The notes below the pieces were generated by a model, which saw nothing but the letters and a program-made list of their open reading frames with translations, was not told where the DNA came from and made no database searches. A program made the position numbers and the translations under genes. From NCBI GenBank assembly GCA_030706745.1, contig JAUZNX010000003.1:186001-250000 (forward strand): a stretch of 64,000 nucleotides of DNA, read 5' to 3'. Shown here one piece after another: positions 46,170 through 53,350 of this stretch (position 1 is its first letter; every line of letters starts with the position of its first letter). The stretch is from Bacteroidota bacterium. GTDB taxonomy: Bacteria > Bacteroidota > Ignavibacteria > Palsa-1295.

Positions 46170-46817
46170 ATGGTGATACGTCCGATACCCGCAGCCGCAC
46201 TAATCTTCCTGACATTGTTCGTGACTGGCTGCAGCTTGTTTGGACCGACGACCAAACCGCTTAGCCCCACTTCGCCGTACCTGCCGCTGCCAAACGCGCT
46301 CGACGAAAATTACTTCCGGTCTCCCTCTGGCGATATTGCGGCCCGCTACCCGAAGGGCTGGCTCAGGGTGGACATTCGGAGTATTCCGATGGAGAATGTC
46401 CTCGAAGTCTATACCGATCCGGAGCGCGAACGAGCGCTCGTACTCGCGGAGATTCCCGCAACGGCCGAGTTTCGGCGTGAAGTCCAACGCGATGGAATGA
46501 GCGCGCTCACGGAGCAATCGTTTCATCTGAAGTCATCGCGCTTGCCTGGCAAACTCAGCATTTCGCGGCCAACCACGCTTTACACCGTGAAGAACAAGCT
46601 GTTCGCAAGCTATGATTATGTGGAGAATTCACCTGATAGCATGCACCAACGGCAACACAGCGTAACGCTTTTCACGACAGGCGCTCGGTTTTATGAACTC
46701 AGTATGATCGAGTTGAATGTTCCTCGGGATCCTTCCGTACATGTTCAGAACTTCCGTCTATTAGCCTCTGTTATCGCGTCGCTCGAAGGGGCGGCCGAAG
46801 TGCGGGACACCCTGTAA
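46170..46817 (+). CDS. Hypothetical lipoprotein
   Basis: 215 residues from ATG 46170; TTG 46164 is an alternative. Lipobox FVTGC. Mature part has ARYPKGWLRVDIRSIPMENVLEVYTDPERERALVLAEIPA and a later TLYTVKNKLFASYDYVENSPDS, which resembles PsbP/DUF1795-like folds for lipoproteins, but no family is certain. Co-directional after the DUF3108 gene by about 36 bases. Confidence 0.65.
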   Translation: MVIRPIPAAALIFLTLFVTGCSLFGPTTKPLSPTSPYLPLPNALDENYFRSPSGDIAARYPKGWLRVDIRSIPMENVLEVYTDPERERALVLAEIPATAEFRREVQRDGMSALTEQSFHLKSSRLPGKLSISRPTTLYTVKNKLFASYDYVENSPDSMHQRQHSVTLFTTGARFYELSMIELNVPRDPSVHVQNFRLLASVIASLEGAAEVRDTL

Positions 46818-46938
46818 AATATGAAATATGAAGTATGAAATATGAAAGTGGCACGCACTGGTAGTAAATTGTGCGTCGAGCGCTAACCTGATTTCATACC
46901 TCACATTTCATACTTCATACTTCATCTTTCATATTTTC
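46818..46938. repeat. Inverted 7-bp repeat array
   Basis: Left: GAAATAT, GAAGTAT, GAAATAT, GAAAGTG after the stop at 46817; right: TTTCATA, CTTCATA, CTTCATC, TTTCATA just before tRNA-Gln. Arms pair over about 25 bases; likely also terminates the upstream gene. Confidence 0.7.
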
Positions 46939-46946
46939 CCACTCGC

Positions 46947-47018
46947 TGGGGCGTCGCCAAGTGGTAAGGCACCGCCCTTTGGAGGCGGCATTCGGAGGTT
47001 CGAATCCTCCCGCCCCAG
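46947..47018 (+). tRNA. tRNA-Gln (TTG)
   Basis: Acceptor TGGGGCG/CGCCCCA, anticodon loop CTTTGGA (TTG), T-arm GTTCGAATC. Flanked on both sides by copies of the 7-bp repeat array. Confidence 0.95.
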
Positions 47019-47021
47019 CGA

Positions 47022-47187
47022 AGGGAAAATATGAGATATGAAGTATGAAATGTGGTGCAGGGCTTTAGTACGAGACATTCTTGGCATCAACAGACTTGTA
47101 TTGCATTGAACGACTTGTCATCACCACCACCCTCCTTCAAGTGAAGAAGCAGCCCGGAAATAACGCTTCATCTTTCATACTTCACAT
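47022..47187. repeat. Second copy of the 7-bp repeat array, after tRNA-Gln
   Basis: GAGATAT, GAAGTAT, GAAATGT just after the tRNA and TTCATCT, TTCATAC, TTCACAT just before prs. Same heptamers as the copy at 46818; the arms are about 110 bases apart. Confidence 0.6.
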
Positions 47188-48132
47188 TTGAAATTCTCCC
47201 CCGTGTCTCACCCAAAGATCGTTTCCGGCCGTAGCAATCCGAAATTCGCGGAAGCGGTTGCTGCGGCGCTCAACGTGCCGATGGCTTCCGTTCGCATCAA
47301 GAATTTCTCGGATGGAGAGATGTGGGTCAAGTACGACGAGAACATCCGCGGCGAGGACCTCTTTATCATCCAGTCCACTAACCCACCGGCGGAGAATCTC
47401 CTCGAGTTACTCATGCTGATTGACGCCGCTCGGCGCGCCAGCGCCAAACGCATCACGGCTGTCATCCCCTACTTCGGCTATGCGCGGCAAGATCGCAAGG
47501 ACCAGCCCCGCGTTGCCATCACGAGCAAACTCATTGCAAACCTGATTGCCAAGGCCGGCGCCGACCGCGTGATTTCGATGGATTTGCATGCGCCGCAGTT
47601 ACAAGGCTTCTTCGATATTCCGGTCGATCACTTATACGCCTCGAACACCTTCGTCAAGCACTTCAAGGAGCAGAAGATCAAGAAGATGATCATTGCTTCG
47701 CCGGATGTCGGTGGCACCAAGATGGCCCGCGCGTATGCCAAGCGATTCAATACCGATCTTATCGTAATCGATAAGCGCCGTCCCGCGCCGAACGTGGCCG
47801 AGGTGATGAACATCATCGGCGATCCCAAAGGCAAGAACGTGATTATGGTAGACGATCTCATCGACACCGCCGGCACGTTCACCAACGCCGCCGTGGCACT
47901 GAAGAAGGCCGGAGCCAACCGAATCTTTGGCGCGTGCACGCATGCCGTCCTTAGCGGCGAGGCCATCAAGCGGATCGAAGATTCGCCGCTCGAGTCGCTC
48001 ATCGTTGCGGACACAATCCCGCTGCTCCATCACTCGCCCAAGATTCGAGTCCAGTCCGTGGCCAAGGTCTTCGCCGAAGCCATCAAACGGACGCATGAGG
48101 ATAAGTCGATTTCCTCGCTGTTCGATACGTAA
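47188..48132 (+). CDS. prs: Ribose-phosphate pyrophosphokinase
   Basis: 314 residues, as E. coli. Start is a TTG (KFSPVSH) or GTG at 47203; no ATG fits. Motifs: FSDGEMWVKYDENIRGEDLFIIQSTN, TAVIPYFGYARQDRKDQPRV, ISMDLHAPQLQGFFDIPVDH, and the PRPP loop VMVDDLIDTAGTFT. Makes PRPP from ribose-5-phosphate and ATP. In many bacteria prs is followed by rplY (ctc) and pth; here those two are 3.9 kb away after an insertion. Confidence 0.96.
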   Translation: MKFSPVSHPKIVSGRSNPKFAEAVAAALNVPMASVRIKNFSDGEMWVKYDENIRGEDLFIIQSTNPPAENLLELLMLIDAARRASAKRITAVIPYFGYARQDRKDQPRVAITSKLIANLIAKAGADRVISMDLHAPQLQGFFDIPVDHLYASNTFVKHFKEQKIKKMIIASPDVGGTKMARAYAKRFNTDLIVIDKRRPAPNVAEVMNIIGDPKGKNVIMVDDLIDTAGTFTNAAVALKKAGANRIFGACTHAVLSGEAIKRIEDSPLESLIVADTIPLLHHSPKIRVQSVAKVFAEAIKRTHEDKSISSLFDT

Positions 48133-48198
48133 TTGGGGCCGGGAACTGGCGCACGTCATTGACAGTGAAAAAGCCGCGTAGGGAAATTGCTATGATAA

Positions 48199-48232
48199 CC
48201 GTAGGGACGTGCTGTGCACGTCCTGCCGCAGG
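48199..48232. repeat. REP-like hairpin after prs
   Basis: GTAGGGACGTGC-TGT-GCACGTCC forms an 8-bp stem with a 3-base loop, then CTGCCGCAGGGCAG forms another. It resembles the hairpin at 16017 and the element near 29866, and marks the left edge of the region that separates prs from rplY. Confidence 0.55.
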
Positions 48233-48311
48233 GCAGCAGAGACATTCCGGTTATCCTGGAAGAGTGGAGGATGTGTCAGGGGAACAAGGGAGGTTGTTGT
48301 AATTTCACACC

Positions 48312-49160
48312 ATGTTTAACAAGACTAGACGGATCAAGGATCATAGAACTTCCACTATTGAGAAGTGGGGGCCTTATGAGTGGTTCGCAATTGTCGCGAT
48401 CTTTTCAGGGCTCGCAGTGCTATTGCTTTTTCTCGGCATTGTCGCATTTACAGGCCGCGGGCCTATTTGGAATTATGATGGGCCTGAGACCGGGGCCATA
48501 GGCGAGTTCATTGGCGGTATTGTTGGCTCGCTCTGGTCGTTTGCCGGTGTACTACTCATCTACAGCACCCTGAAAATTCAGAGACGAGGAATGAAACAGG
48601 TGCGATTACAAATGAAACGAGATCGGAGACGCAATGAGAAGGAGGACTTTGAGAGAACGTTCTTCAATCTATGTACCCACCTTCGTGCGTTGAAGGCGAA
48701 TTTACGTGTGCGCGGCTTGCGCTTCGATGCGAGTGTAATGAGCGGGATGAGCCAAACCTCCTATGAGGGAGCAGAGGTATTGAAGTACCTCGAAGAGATG
48801 TTAAGACAATTCGTGGTTGAGAATCCAAATCATCCGCTGGATGACCAGTTGACTGAATTCTTTGATAAGACTGATTTTGCAGCACATTACTATCGGTCGG
48901 TTTATCACATTTTGAAATTCATCAAACTCAGCGCGCCAGCCGACAATATTCATCCTCCGAAGTTTTATGCCGACATTCTTCAGGCTGAGTTATCATCTTC
49001 CGAACTATTCCTGATATGCTATAACTCATGGCTTCCGAGATTTTCAAAGCTTAAGGTTCTAAGAATAGAATTTGATTTCATCCAGAATCTGCGATACGAT
49101 TGCCTTATTAGCGACGATCATAGAGCTTTAAGAAGAAAGGAAGAAGCCCATGAGAGCTAA
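48312..49160 (+). CDS. putAbiC-like phage abortive infection protein
   Basis: 282 residues. Two N-terminal membrane helices (WFAIVAIFSGLAVLLLFLGIVAF, residues about 24-46, and IGEFIGGIVGSLWSFAGVLLIYSTL, about 65-90). GAIGEFIGGIVGSLWSFAGVLLIYSTL followed by an FERTFFNLCTHLRAL helix is the pattern of the putAbiC family (PF16872); later FAAHYYRSVYHILKFI and ADILQAELSSSELFLICYNSW fit it too. Ends overlapping the KAP gene by 11 bases. Anti-phage action is known for relatives and inferred here. Confidence 0.78.
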   Translation: MFNKTRRIKDHRTSTIEKWGPYEWFAIVAIFSGLAVLLLFLGIVAFTGRGPIWNYDGPETGAIGEFIGGIVGSLWSFAGVLLIYSTLKIQRRGMKQVRLQMKRDRRRNEKEDFERTFFNLCTHLRALKANLRVRGLRFDASVMSGMSQTSYEGAEVLKYLEEMLRQFVVENPNHPLDDQLTEFFDKTDFAAHYYRSVYHILKFIKLSAPADNIHPPKFYADILQAELSSSELFLICYNSWLPRFSKLKVLRIEFDFIQNLRYDCLISDDHRALRRKEEAHES

Positions 49161-51216
49161 CTTCGACCTAGACAAAGACGAGGCAATCGCTCATAAGGAA
49201 GAGGATCTTTTAGGCCGATGGCCCTTCGCATCAAACATTTGCGAGATTATCGACTCCATTCCAGAAGGGCAAAGTATTAGAATCGGCCTGATCGGCGAGT
49301 GGGGTAGCGGCAAAACCGTAATACTGAATTTCATCAAGACGATTGAGTCGCAACAAAATGAAGTTGTGTACGTCAAGCTCTGGGGAACAGCCTCTGTTCC
49401 AGTCGTTTTACAAGAGATTGTTCGGCAGCTAAGCAATAGCCTGCGTCCACAAGATTCAGAGTTCACATGGAACTTCCTTGGCGGATTATCCCCAAACGCC
49501 GCGAGTATTCTGAACAGCGAAGGAGCATACTTCGGAATGGATCTCCCCTCTTCCCTGCGCTCCATAAAGAGCTTGTCCAACATTCCTGGGAAACGCGTCG
49601 TAGTCTTGTTTGATGACTTGGAAAGAGCTGAGCCGAACTTAACACCGGACCTCTTCTACCTCTTGAGAAATGGACTAAACATTCCAAACATGTCCTTCGT
49701 GGTAGCGTACGATCCTGAAGCAATCAAGGAGCGATTTCAATTCGGTTCTTCCTCAACCTACGCAAGGAAGGATTACCTGAATAAGATCTTCGACTTCAGT
49801 TTTCGTGTGCCTGGCCTGGAGAGTGACGGCATTTGGTCTCTTATCGACAACGAATTCAAGGCACTTGATATTCCTCTGGACTTCCTGGAGGCGGCGGCGG
49901 CTTTTAAGTTTCTTCCCTGGAATCCAAGGAGAATTCGATCATTTGTCAGGCATTTATCCGCGTCGAGCCACATCTTAGGCCGCTTTGACCGTGAGGAGGT
50001 TGACGCTGAGTTGGTTTCCATGACTACCCTTCTTGAAGTATTTTCGCCTGGCCTTTGTGACATTATTTTAGGGTCGGCATACTGGGCGCAAGATCACTTT
50101 TCACTCGGAGGCTCAAACAGAGAGGCTGGAGTGAAGACGATCATGGAATCGCTAACGAGCCAAAATATCGTTCCTCTTGCCGACTCTGAAAGCGTAAGTC
50201 GCATTATTTCACGGCTTGATGAGAGATTTATAAAACGTTCGGACTTCCAGATGTACTCTCACCTATTGGATCACCCTCCAATCGTTACGGAAAAGGAGTG
50301 TAAGGTGATCATGCTTCGCTCGAAAGAGGAGGGCACCACCTTAGAAAGTGTGATTCGAACCTACAGTGCAGAAAGTGGGCACAGCATTCAATCTGTCTTC
50401 CTTGCGCTGTTTTTGGAATCCGTTGACATATACGCTCGTCAATTACAGCCTTACTTGGAAATACATTTTGAAAACACTGGCATAGCGGCGGATGGACTTC
50501 GAACGCTTAGTTTCTTGGACGAGCTCGTCTCCCTAAGTTCAGTTGAAGACTTCAAGTATGGATTAGGTTCGAGCTGCTTCGAAGGGATACTAAAGGTGCA
50601 TCAGGCGTGGGGCAATTGGACACGCGAGTACTTACCCATACGCGAACGCGAACGCTCTCTGTTGAAATCCTTCATTGAAACGGGACCTCATTCTGATGAT
50701 AGCCTATTGCGAATGGTTGCTCCCTGGAGCCAGATGTTTAGTGATGACAAAGTCTTTTACAGAGAAACTTGTGATCTCCTTTTTGCGTGCTTGAGGGAGA
50801 ATGTTATTAAAGAAACGGAGGCTTCATTTCCCTGGCTTTCCCTTGCGTCAAAGTTTCGCGATTTTCCATATTTTTATTACCCCCTTTTTTTGGACAACGA
50901 TTCGGTCTTTTGGAGGCCAGAAAATCTCGAAAGATTGAAGCAGATACTTTCACTCATTCCGGCACAATCTGGCATTACGGAAAATGCTTATCTCATTTTG
51001 ATCACGCTCTCTACCGTCTTGCTCGGGAAGAATCCATTCTATGCTTCTTTTAACAACAATGTTTTGAAGGATGCTGGTACCCTGCAGTTGCTTTTCGATT
51101 TTGCTACCGCATCTAGGTTGTCATCTCGCAAACGGGGTGAACTTTCTCTTGCAAAAGCTAACATTGAAAGTGAGCTGAAGGTGACTTTAACCACTCCAGA
51201 TTGGCTCTCTCAATAA
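49150..51216 (+). CDS. KAP-family P-loop NTPase
   Basis: 688 residues. Walker A is GEWGSGKT (residues 49-56) and Walker B RVVVLFDDLERAEP (about 148-160), with LFYLLRNGLNIPNMSFVVAYDPEAIK and YLNKIFDFSFRVPGL, the usual KAP layout. Unlike many KAPs, no transmembrane helices were seen inside the ATPase part. The C-terminal 350 residues are helical and unassigned. Its start overlaps the putAbiC-like gene, so the two form one unit; the KAP protein probably acts as the energy-using or sensing partner. Confidence 0.85.
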   Translation: MRANFDLDKDEAIAHKEEDLLGRWPFASNICEIIDSIPEGQSIRIGLIGEWGSGKTVILNFIKTIESQQNEVVYVKLWGTASVPVVLQEIVRQLSNSLRPQDSEFTWNFLGGLSPNAASILNSEGAYFGMDLPSSLRSIKSLSNIPGKRVVVLFDDLERAEPNLTPDLFYLLRNGLNIPNMSFVVAYDPEAIKERFQFGSSSTYARKDYLNKIFDFSFRVPGLESDGIWSLIDNEFKALDIPLDFLEAAAAFKFLPWNPRRIRSFVRHLSASSHILGRFDREEVDAELVSMTTLLEVFSPGLCDIILGSAYWAQDHFSLGGSNREAGVKTIMESLTSQNIVPLADSESVSRIISRLDERFIKRSDFQMYSHLLDHPPIVTEKECKVIMLRSKEEGTTLESVIRTYSAESGHSIQSVFLALFLESVDIYARQLQPYLEIHFENTGIAADGLRTLSFLDELVSLSSVEDFKYGLGSSCFEGILKVHQAWGNWTREYLPIRERERSLLKSFIETGPHSDDSLLRMVAPWSQMFSDDKVFYRETCDLLFACLRENVIKETEASFPWLSLASKFRDFPYFYYPLFLDNDSVFWRPENLERLKQILSLIPAQSGITENAYLILITLSTVLLGKNPFYASFNNNVLKDAGTLQLLFDFATASRLSSRKRGELSLAKANIESELKVTLTTPDWLSQ

Positions 51217-51301
51217 TACAGTTCCGCTCCGCTCCACCCCAGTCTGCGGGTACTTCCTTCGACACGTTCAGGCCGCCTCCGGCACTTTGTCGCTGCCGCG
51301 C

Positions 51302-51424
51302 GCAGCGTAGGCGCGTGAGGCAGCGTAGGCGCGTGAGGCAGCGTAGGCGCGTGAGGCAGCGTAGGCGCTGAGGCAGCGTAGGCGCGTGAGGCCGCGTAGG
51401 CGCGTGAGGCAGCGTAGGCGCGTG
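51302..51424. repeat. Tandem array of 18-bp units
   Basis: Seven near-identical units of GCAGCGTAGGCGCGTGAG (the last is 16 bases, one has a 1-base deletion, one a single change). A related GCGTAGGCGCGAG piece is also found inside the following REP hairpin at about 51445. Confidence 0.9.
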
Positions 51425-51430
51425 CAATCC

Positions 51431-51523
51431 GTCATTCCCGCGAAGCGTAGGCGCGAGCCGGGAATCCAGGTTCGATTCAGCACGATCGAGTGGGGCCTGC
51501 ATCCCCGCTTTCGCGGGGATGAC
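51431..51523. repeat. REP-type inverted pair
   Basis: GTCATTCCCGCG...CGGGAATCC at left, GCATCCCCGC-TTTC-GCGGGGATGAC at right, in opposite orientation. The left hairpin is interrupted by a GCGTAGGCGCGAGC piece. Confidence 0.6.
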
Positions 51524-51573
51524 ATAGAAGGCTTTTCGCAGGACTGACAGAGTGGCCGTGGGCTTTCTAAAAA

Positions 51574-51794
51574 GAAACAGGTGCCCGTACGATTAATTCT
51601 TCGCTTGCCTCTTGACTTCCGTGTTTCGGCGCCCTATATTCGAGTGGGTGATGATAGGCACCTCTTGCTCATTGACAATCAAACCTCTTGCCATTTGACA
51701 ACATGGCGATTTTGATGCAATGGAGAGGACATTCATTAAATGACAACTCAAAAGAGAGAGTTAAAGTATTACTTTAACCACGGGCACCTGTTTC
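51574..51794. mobile_element. MITE-like 221-bp element with 15-bp TIRs
   Basis: Ends GAAACAGGTGCCCGT and ACGGGCACCTGTTTC are exact inverted repeats. Read on the minus strand, its halves match the left and right ends of the element at 29735-30880 in order, without the 1-kb interior. No coding capacity. Confidence 0.65.
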
Positions 51795-51997
51795 CGGCGG
51801 CAAAGAACGAAACACGAGCCAATCTTGCGGGTGATGATTTGCCACGCTGGGAGCCATTCCCGACTCAAATTGTTAAGAGGCCGCAATTCAAAAGTCCGTA
51901 CGAGCGATCGGCGGGCACAATTTCCAACAGCGCTGTTGGGCACTGCTCGATGTGAGCGATCATGTTGACGTAAGTGTGCAGCGGCTGATAGAATATC

Positions 51998-52651
51998 ATG
52001 GCACAACTCCAAATCAACGCTGAAAAGCGTAGCAAACTCGGCGGCTCGACCGCATTACAGCTTCGCAACAAAGGCCGAATTCCCGGCATTGTTTATGGTC
52101 ATGGCGAAGCCAGTATTCCCTTTCATGTCAAGGAACTCGATCTGCGACCGCTTATCTATACGCATGAGACGCATACAGTCAACCTGAATATCGATGGCGA
52201 GCCGACGCTCTGCATCTTGCGCGAAGTCCAGTTTCATCCTGTGACCGACCGGGTATCGCATATCGATCTGATCGCAATCCATGCGGGAGAAAAGATCAAG
52301 GTTGACGTGCCGGTCCGTTTGGTCGGGACTGCGATTGGAACAAAGGATGGCGGTATCCTCAATTTTGTTCTCCACAAACTGAACATCGAAGTTCTGCCGG
52401 ATGCCATCCCGGAGCATATCGATGTTGATGTGAGCGACCTGAAGATCGGCCACGCCAAACACGTATCGGATCTTCCTGAACATCCGGCCTACACGATTTC
52501 GGGCGAAGCCAACGCCGTCATCGTCGCGGTTGTACCGCCGAAGGCAGCGGAGGAAGCAGCAGCCACGACCGAGGCTGTTGTGACCGAACCGGAGCAGATC
52601 AAGGCGAAGGGCAAGAAGGAAGAGGAAGAGGGCGCTTCCGCGAAGGCGTAA
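51998..52651 (+). CDS. rplY: 50S ribosomal protein bL25 (Ctc/TL5 type)
   Basis: 217 residues: the L25 domain (INAEKRSKLGGSTALQLRNKGRIPGIVYGHGE) and the TL5 C-domain (DVPVRLVGTAIGTKDGGILNFVLHKLNIEVLPDAIPEHIDVDVSDLKIGHAKHVSDL). The tail is acidic/basic and low-complexity. Binds 5S rRNA. Followed by pth. Confidence 0.96.
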   Translation: MAQLQINAEKRSKLGGSTALQLRNKGRIPGIVYGHGEASIPFHVKELDLRPLIYTHETHTVNLNIDGEPTLCILREVQFHPVTDRVSHIDLIAIHAGEKIKVDVPVRLVGTAIGTKDGGILNFVLHKLNIEVLPDAIPEHIDVDVSDLKIGHAKHVSDLPEHPAYTISGEANAVIVAVVPPKAAEEAAATTEAVVTEPEQIKAKGKKEEEEGASAKA

Positions 52652-52765: not shown

Positions 52766-53350
52766 ATGTGGCTCTTTGCGGGACTTGGTAATATTGGCCG
52801 TGAGTATGCCGGAACGCGGCATAATGTGGGCTTCGAGGTGGTCGATCGCGTCGAGCGGGATCTGACTCGTTCAACGGGTTGGCGTGCCGGTAAAGGCGAT
52901 TATTATGTTGCAAAAGGCGCGCATGCCGGCGAAGATGTTCTTCTGATCAAGCCGACGACCTACATGAATCTCTCGGGCCGCGCGGTCCGGGATGCACTTC
53001 AATTCTATAAGTGCGATATCTCGAATCTGGTCGTGATCGTCGATGATATCGCGCTGCCATTGGGGACACTTCGGCTACGGCTGCTCGGCTCTGATGGCGG
53101 ACATAACGGCCTCTCCTCCATAATTTACGAGCTTGGCACGAATGACTTCGCTCGACTTCGATGCGGCATTGGTGGAGAATTTCGGAAAGGCGATCAGGTC
53201 CGCCATGTGCTATCGCAATTCAAGCCAGACGAATTGCAGCGAGCATCCGAAATGATCGATCGCGCCGCAGGCGCTTGTGAACGAATCGTTGCTTCGGGAC
53301 TATCGATGGCGATGAACGTCATCAATGTAAACGACGCGACGCAAGCGTAG
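52766..53350 (+). CDS. pth: Peptidyl-tRNA hydrolase
   Basis: 194 residues. Core: GLGNIGREYAGTRHNVGFEVVD (usual GLGNPG has Ile instead of Pro), KPTTYMNLSGRAV, VVIVDDIALPLGTLRLR, GSDGGHNGLSSI. Catalytic His is in TRHNVGF. Releases peptides from dropped tRNA. Confidence 0.96.
   Translation: MWLFAGLGNIGREYAGTRHNVGFEVVDRVERDLTRSTGWRAGKGDYYVAKGAHAGEDVLLIKPTTYMNLSGRAVRDALQFYKCDISNLVVIVDDIALPLGTLRLRLLGSDGGHNGLSSIIYELGTNDFARLRCGIGGEFRKGDQVRHVLSQFKPDELQRASEMIDRAAGACERIVASGLSMAMNVINVNDATQA

Follow-up and report, generated by a model that had tools for sequence, protein, structure and literature searches.

A putAbiC and KAP NTPase gene pair inserted between prs and rplY in an Ignavibacteria genome: a candidate abortive-infection operon

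The window analyzed here is a stretch of 64,000 nucleotides from a Bacteroidota bacterium of the class Ignavibacteria (assembly GCA_030706745.1, contig JAUZNX010000003.1, positions 186,001 to 250,000 of the forward strand). Between prs and rplY, it contains two overlapping genes that code for a membrane protein of the putAbiC family and a KAP-type NTPase. The preferred interpretation, to which a probability of roughly 0.4 is assigned, is that this gene pair constitutes a horizontally acquired, translationally coupled abortive-infection operon, in which the KAP protein would serve as sensor or switch and the putAbiC protein as membrane effector. What is new is the combination of two known kinds of abortive-infection protein in one locus.

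Insertion of the Gene Pair Between prs and rplY

The left flank of the insertion is prs, coding for ribose-phosphate pyrophosphokinase (47188..48132, + strand; Pfam Pribosyltran_N, 1e-46), and the right flank is rplY, coding for ribosomal protein L25/TL5 (51998..52651, + strand; Pfam, 5.5e-26 and 2e-26), which is followed by the peptidyl-tRNA hydrolase gene pth (52766..53350, + strand; Pfam, 9.6e-61). In relatives, rplY and pth are located directly after prs. A preliminary description of this DNA had proposed that the pair was inserted into a prs-rplY-pth arrangement; Pfam agrees with the named flanks, and comparison of the interval in relatives revealed the empty site. In the congener G002, prs and rplY are separated by a gap of 272 bp without an insert, and pth and the gene that follows it are found in the same order. 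This is the only empty site within the genus, as the contig of G001 stops in the region and G003 to G006 are rearranged differently. Other genera of the family (L009-L012) show the uninterrupted prs-rplY-pth order as well, as do many genomes of the class. No putAbiC match was obtained in any other genome of the family that was searched, and the family contains no close relative of the KAP protein, its KAP-like matches being weak and restricted to the NTPase domain. In addition, the GC content of putAbiC (0.453) and KAP (0.463) lies below that of prs, rplY, and pth (0.544-0.568), and the GC content at third codon positions is about 0.50 in the pair vs. 0.56-0.75 in the three flanking genes. The comparison thus identifies the pair as an insertion which, given the empty sites in relatives, the lack of close homologs in the family and the low GC content, is recent and probably of foreign origin. 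A hairpin directly 5' of rplY (51930..51985, + strand), both arms of which are kept in the seven family loci compared, is undamaged, so the insertion falls between prs and this hairpin.

Though the range given in the preliminary description opens at 48133, the gene pair itself starts at 48312. The putAbiC gene (48312..49160, + strand; 282 aa) was assigned by PF16872, PADLOC, PHROG, and AlphaFold, and the KAP NTPase gene (49150..51216, + strand; 688 aa) by PF07693, PADLOC, and AlphaFold. The two reading frames, both intact, share 11 nt. Open reading frames, Pfam, hydropathy, and AlphaFold therefore bear out the earlier picture of a two-helix putAbiC protein gene overlapping a 688-residue KAP gene. 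A purine-rich, ribosome-binding-like sequence, AAAGGAAG (49136..49143, + strand), lies inside putAbiC shortly before the ATG of the KAP gene; together with the overlap, this sequence makes translational coupling likely.

The putAbiC Protein

The putAbiC protein matches Pfam PF16872 at residues 191-263 (E = 3.5e-12, 47.1 bits vs. a cut-off of 22), the PADLOC AbiP profile (6.3e-9) and PHROG 8999 (2.9e-23). Hydropathy indicates two hydrophobic helices, one spanning residues 26-44 and the other residues 66-84. The AlphaFold model (mean pLDDT 88.8) consists of a helix at residues 21-46, a single helix spanning residues 57-129, a beta-hairpin and a helical C-terminal domain. According to this model, helix 57-129 would exit the membrane and extend into the cytoplasm, a direction that we infer. 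Neither the PDB structures nor the viral models contained a significant match to the fold, and sequence comparison with solved structures gave only marginal, meaningless matches.

The family motif HYYRSVYHI (residues 192-200; 48885..48911, + strand) emerged from an alignment of 62 relatives, in which F118, H192, Y193, R195, Y198, H199, and I200 are invariant. The invariance of HYxRxxYHI is partly due to construction, because 61 relatives had been retrieved with a motif in which H192, Y193, R195, Y198, H199, and mostly I200 are fixed. However, the motif region was still the best conserved part in a more diverse set obtained from the Pfam family and a plasmid search, and it may represent an active or binding site. 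Among the 62 relatives, PADLOC assigned 54 to AbiP and 34 to AbiC. The score above the Pfam cut-off, the six invariant motif residues and the two N-terminal membrane helices are shared with these proteins, and the window protein belongs to the AbiC/AbiP group, although it is only about 20-32% identical to its nearest relatives. One putAbiC protein (L048:901-3144) was found to bear an acidic, repetitive C-terminal extension of about 460 residues.

According to the excerpted account of PdpSau, a protein that is AbiP-like in structure, it stops phage DNA replication and alters membrane polarity and permeability (PMC10127798). The same excerpt describes one N-terminal membrane helix, in contrast to the two of the window protein, and mentions no partner (PMC10127798).

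The KAP NTPase

The KAP protein is recognized by Pfam PF07693 (E = 2.6e-24, 86.5 bits vs. a cut-off of 20) and by the PADLOC profile of PifA (E = 8.4e-24), and its NTPase domain is complete (about residues 10-270). The Walker A motif GEWGSGKT, previously reported for this protein, is located at residues 49-56 (49294..49317, + strand). In an alignment of 28 KAP proteins, all of which PADLOC assigns to PifA, its residues G52, G54, and K55 are invariant. The same applies to D156 and R159 of the Walker B-like sequence VVLFDDLER (49600..49626, + strand), in which D155 is nearly invariant, and to K212 and R260. No segment of the whole protein exceeds the hydropathy threshold for a membrane helix, which does not exclude membership, because PifA is also devoid of membrane helices.

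The C-terminal part of about 400 residues yielded no Pfam match above the cut-off, so that this half still has no assigned family, as had been noted earlier. A structure search with the AlphaFold model of the KAP protein pointed to similarity with ORC/Cdc6, plant NLR resistosomes, EfAvs5, and the RADAR protein RdrA; TM-scores over the whole length were low, since it is mostly the NTPase half that aligns. A search by sequence against solved structures gave no match.

Of the named proteins, PifA of plasmid F is the most closely related: its motifs follow in the same order, it likewise has no membrane helix, and residues 10-225 align with it at 25% identity. Beyond about residue 230, no significant similarity between the two proteins was found, and the homology therefore does not extend over the whole length. 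The genomic context differs as well: pifA adjoins pifC, whereas the neighbors of the window gene are prs, putAbiC, rplY, and pth. In the excerpted account of PifA, the protein senses T7 proteins and kills the cell via membrane depolarization, and it possibly has a different primary role (PMC8594841). QatA of the QatABCD system and the PADLOC candidate systems PDC-S20 and PDC-S49 likewise include KAP-type NTPases, whose profiles match the window protein in the P-loop region. For QatA, the score of 44.9 bits compares with a curated cut-off of 600, and the adjacent genes code for no Qat component, the one QatD-like match being 9 kb away; membership in PDC-S49 was rejected, as the match is confined to the P-loop region. 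With matches to AbiP and AbiC on one side and to PifA and QatA on the other, the PADLOC results uphold the earlier statement that both families are linked to defense.

Association of putAbiC With Other Partners

Several other putAbiC genes are followed by a second gene. A DUF262/GmrSD_N gene is located immediately downstream of putAbiC in a Klebsiella plasmid (L071:5893-8486), Arenibacter (L143:4848-7501), Herminiimonas (L162:4800-7388) and Cellvibrionaceae (L179:4968-6900), and at a distance of 189 nt in a fifth locus (L165:4983-7871); in four of the five cases the genes overlap or are at most 9 nt apart. As in the window, putAbiC in the first four loci lies directly upstream of the second gene or overlaps it. 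In contrast to the window, the partner is a DUF262/GmrSD_N rather than a KAP protein, and this arrangement recurs in unrelated bacteria while the KAP pair does not. Part of the putAbiC family is thus habitually found in tight association with another protein, and the putAbiC-DUF262 pair is a better candidate for a two-gene defense system than the KAP pair.

In seven prophages (L172, L185, L186, and L188-L191), which we take to be P2-like from a neighboring gene, a gene for an ASCH-type protein of 127-139 aa is located directly upstream of putAbiC; the domain was checked in L185. In Vibrio alginolyticus (L101:4950-5804), putAbiC is an integron cassette amid DUF3265 markers and a toxin-antitoxin pair. 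One plasmid-borne putAbiC gene is situated near a DUF3375/DUF4194/SbcC-like cluster, presumably Wadjet-like.

These contexts suggest that putAbiC is a membrane protein with exchangeable partners, a mobile effector that could be linked to different regulators, and cooperation with a KAP protein is plausible. Going further, putAbiC might be an exchangeable effector controlled by DUF262, ASCH, or KAP proteins, the last bearing a novel sensor half at the C-terminus; the window would then hold the first two-component case of a PifA-type with an AbiC/AbiP-type protein; this more specific proposal is put forward with considerable doubt. Experimental work would do better to begin with the recurrent putAbiC-DUF262 operon.

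Proposed Mechanism

The model takes as its starting points the observed insertion, the overlap, the family memberships, the topology and the intact nucleotide-binding and family motifs. A soluble PifA-type KAP NTPase would survey the cell, probably via its family-specific helical C-terminal half. An encounter with a phage product would shift its nucleotide or oligomer state, and the KAP protein would then switch on the putAbiC protein made together with it, whose long helix would lead from the second membrane helix to the cytoplasmic helical domain with the HYxRxxYHI motif. The activated putAbiC protein would depolarize the membrane or block phage replication, and the infected cell would stop. 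The roles of switch and effector are assigned because of the analogy with PifA and PdpSau; sensing, activation, killing, and the joint action of both proteins are inferred. If the model is correct, a soluble PifA-type NTPase controls a separate AbiC/AbiP-type membrane effector. This would offer a testable answer to the question of how KAP NTPases cause membrane damage, a link that the excerpted account of PifA suggests and leaves unexplained (PMC8594841).

Recurrence of the Pairing and Alternative Explanations

The search for further pairs covered three sets of genomes, 395 from the phylum, 274 from the class and 398 from the Pseudomonadota (the phylum of L148), in addition to 74 GTDB loci, 14 loci from IMG/VR viral contigs and nine plasmid loci. 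The profiles of both families were run on every collected locus; as a positive control, the KAP profile picked up the KAP gene at almost every KAP locus. Several results weigh against the coupled operon. Among 154 putAbiC loci, only that of the window has a KAP neighbor, metagenomes being outside the search, and none of the roughly 80 other KAP loci has a putAbiC neighbor. Each family is also found alone, as putAbiC integron cassettes and single KAP genes. Around the pair, PADLOC recognized no defense island: for ten neighboring proteins, it gave just two weak hits, both to widespread enzyme families. Finally, the C-terminal half of the KAP protein, all-helical in the AlphaFold model, was predicted with low confidence.

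These counts are to be read with the sampling in mind: a single motif shared with the window led to the GTDB and viral loci, many loci reach only about 1.5 kb to each side, and a few KAP loci are near-identical prophages. Given the positive control and these limits, a widespread KAP-putAbiC system is unlikely, and the pairing may be rare or recent. The idea of an established, recurring system was hence not supported by the neighborhood search, which gave one of the two outcomes that the preliminary description had named as refuting, a lack of association between the two families elsewhere. In the library searched, no paper treated putAbiC together with KAP. The defense function of each gene remains unrefuted by this outcome. 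From the preliminary proposal of a candidate anti-phage pair, the insertion, the defense families and the unassigned C-terminal half were retained, while the recurrence was not; the two-component claim is plausible and rests on a single example. Among phage records, KAP had no match and putAbiC three weak ones, and a phage origin of the pair was rejected for this reason. Viral contigs scanned with the single proteins yielded nothing.

Nearly as likely as the coupled operon, and close behind it, is the explanation that two independent single-gene abortive-infection genes share an insertion and a transcript, each being sufficient alone. The lack of a second pair speaks for this explanation, as do the usually solitary occurrence of both families (putAbiC in integron cassettes or beside unrelated genes, KAP alone) and the PADLOC models for AbiC, AbiP, and PifA, which are all single-protein. 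It fits less well with the 11-nt overlap and its likely translational coupling, or with the close two-gene units that putAbiC builds with DUF262 partners.

It is unlikely that the pair has a role other than phage defense, for example as a membrane stress module or as an addiction unit retained by the mobile element that introduced it. No close relative has a known phage phenotype, and another primary role has been suggested for PifA itself, as far as the excerpted account extends (PMC8594841), but the relatives are annotated or modeled as abortive-infection proteins and are found in prophages, plasmids, and integrons. A split KAP receptor, in which putAbiC would supply the membrane anchor found within the NTPase domain of many KAP proteins, is highly improbable and was rejected as the main interpretation: the window protein lacks a membrane helix and has the shortest Walker A-B distance measured (102 aa), and in several KAP relatives helices precede the Walker motifs or lie between them, but helix-free KAP proteins, PifA included, are common and none had an adjacent putAbiC.

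Repeats at the Borders and the rplY Hairpin

The REP-like hairpins, the 18-bp array and the MITE-like element described previously for the borders are all present. On the left, a REP-like dispersed repeat (48197..48262, + strand) has about 24 further copies in the same genome. On the right, the KAP gene is followed by a tandem array of 6.9 copies of an 18-bp unit (51302..51424, + strand; six matches vs. 0.01 expected), which occurs nowhere else within the window, and by a REP-like inverted repeat visible in the sequence (51431..51523, no strand assigned; GTCATTCCCGCG...CGCGGGGATGAC). The adjoining MITE-like dispersed repeat of about 240 bp (51564..51803, no strand assigned) has 41 matches in the genome and perfect 15-bp terminal inverted repeats at 51574-51588 and 51780-51794. 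This repeat is also present in L276-L279 and L304-L313. Most of the matches share a shorter core around TTCATTAAATGACAACTCAAAAGAGAGAGTTAAAGTATTACTTTAAC, which does not mark the beginning of any conserved gene. An AT-rich repeat, TATGAAATATGAAGTATGAA, exists in inverted and direct copies around a tRNA-Gln gene before prs (window 46816-47207), and at other sites of the genome (L304, L305, L307, and L313) similar copies adjoin the dispersed repeat.

The hairpin upstream of rplY matches no Rfam family and is a candidate leader that might regulate ribosomal protein L25. Its arms are GCGCYGTTGGGCACT ... AAGTGTGCRGCRGC, and inspection by eye revealed one pair that is changed on both sides. In another family (L013, L015-L018), a different conserved block is located ahead of rplY.

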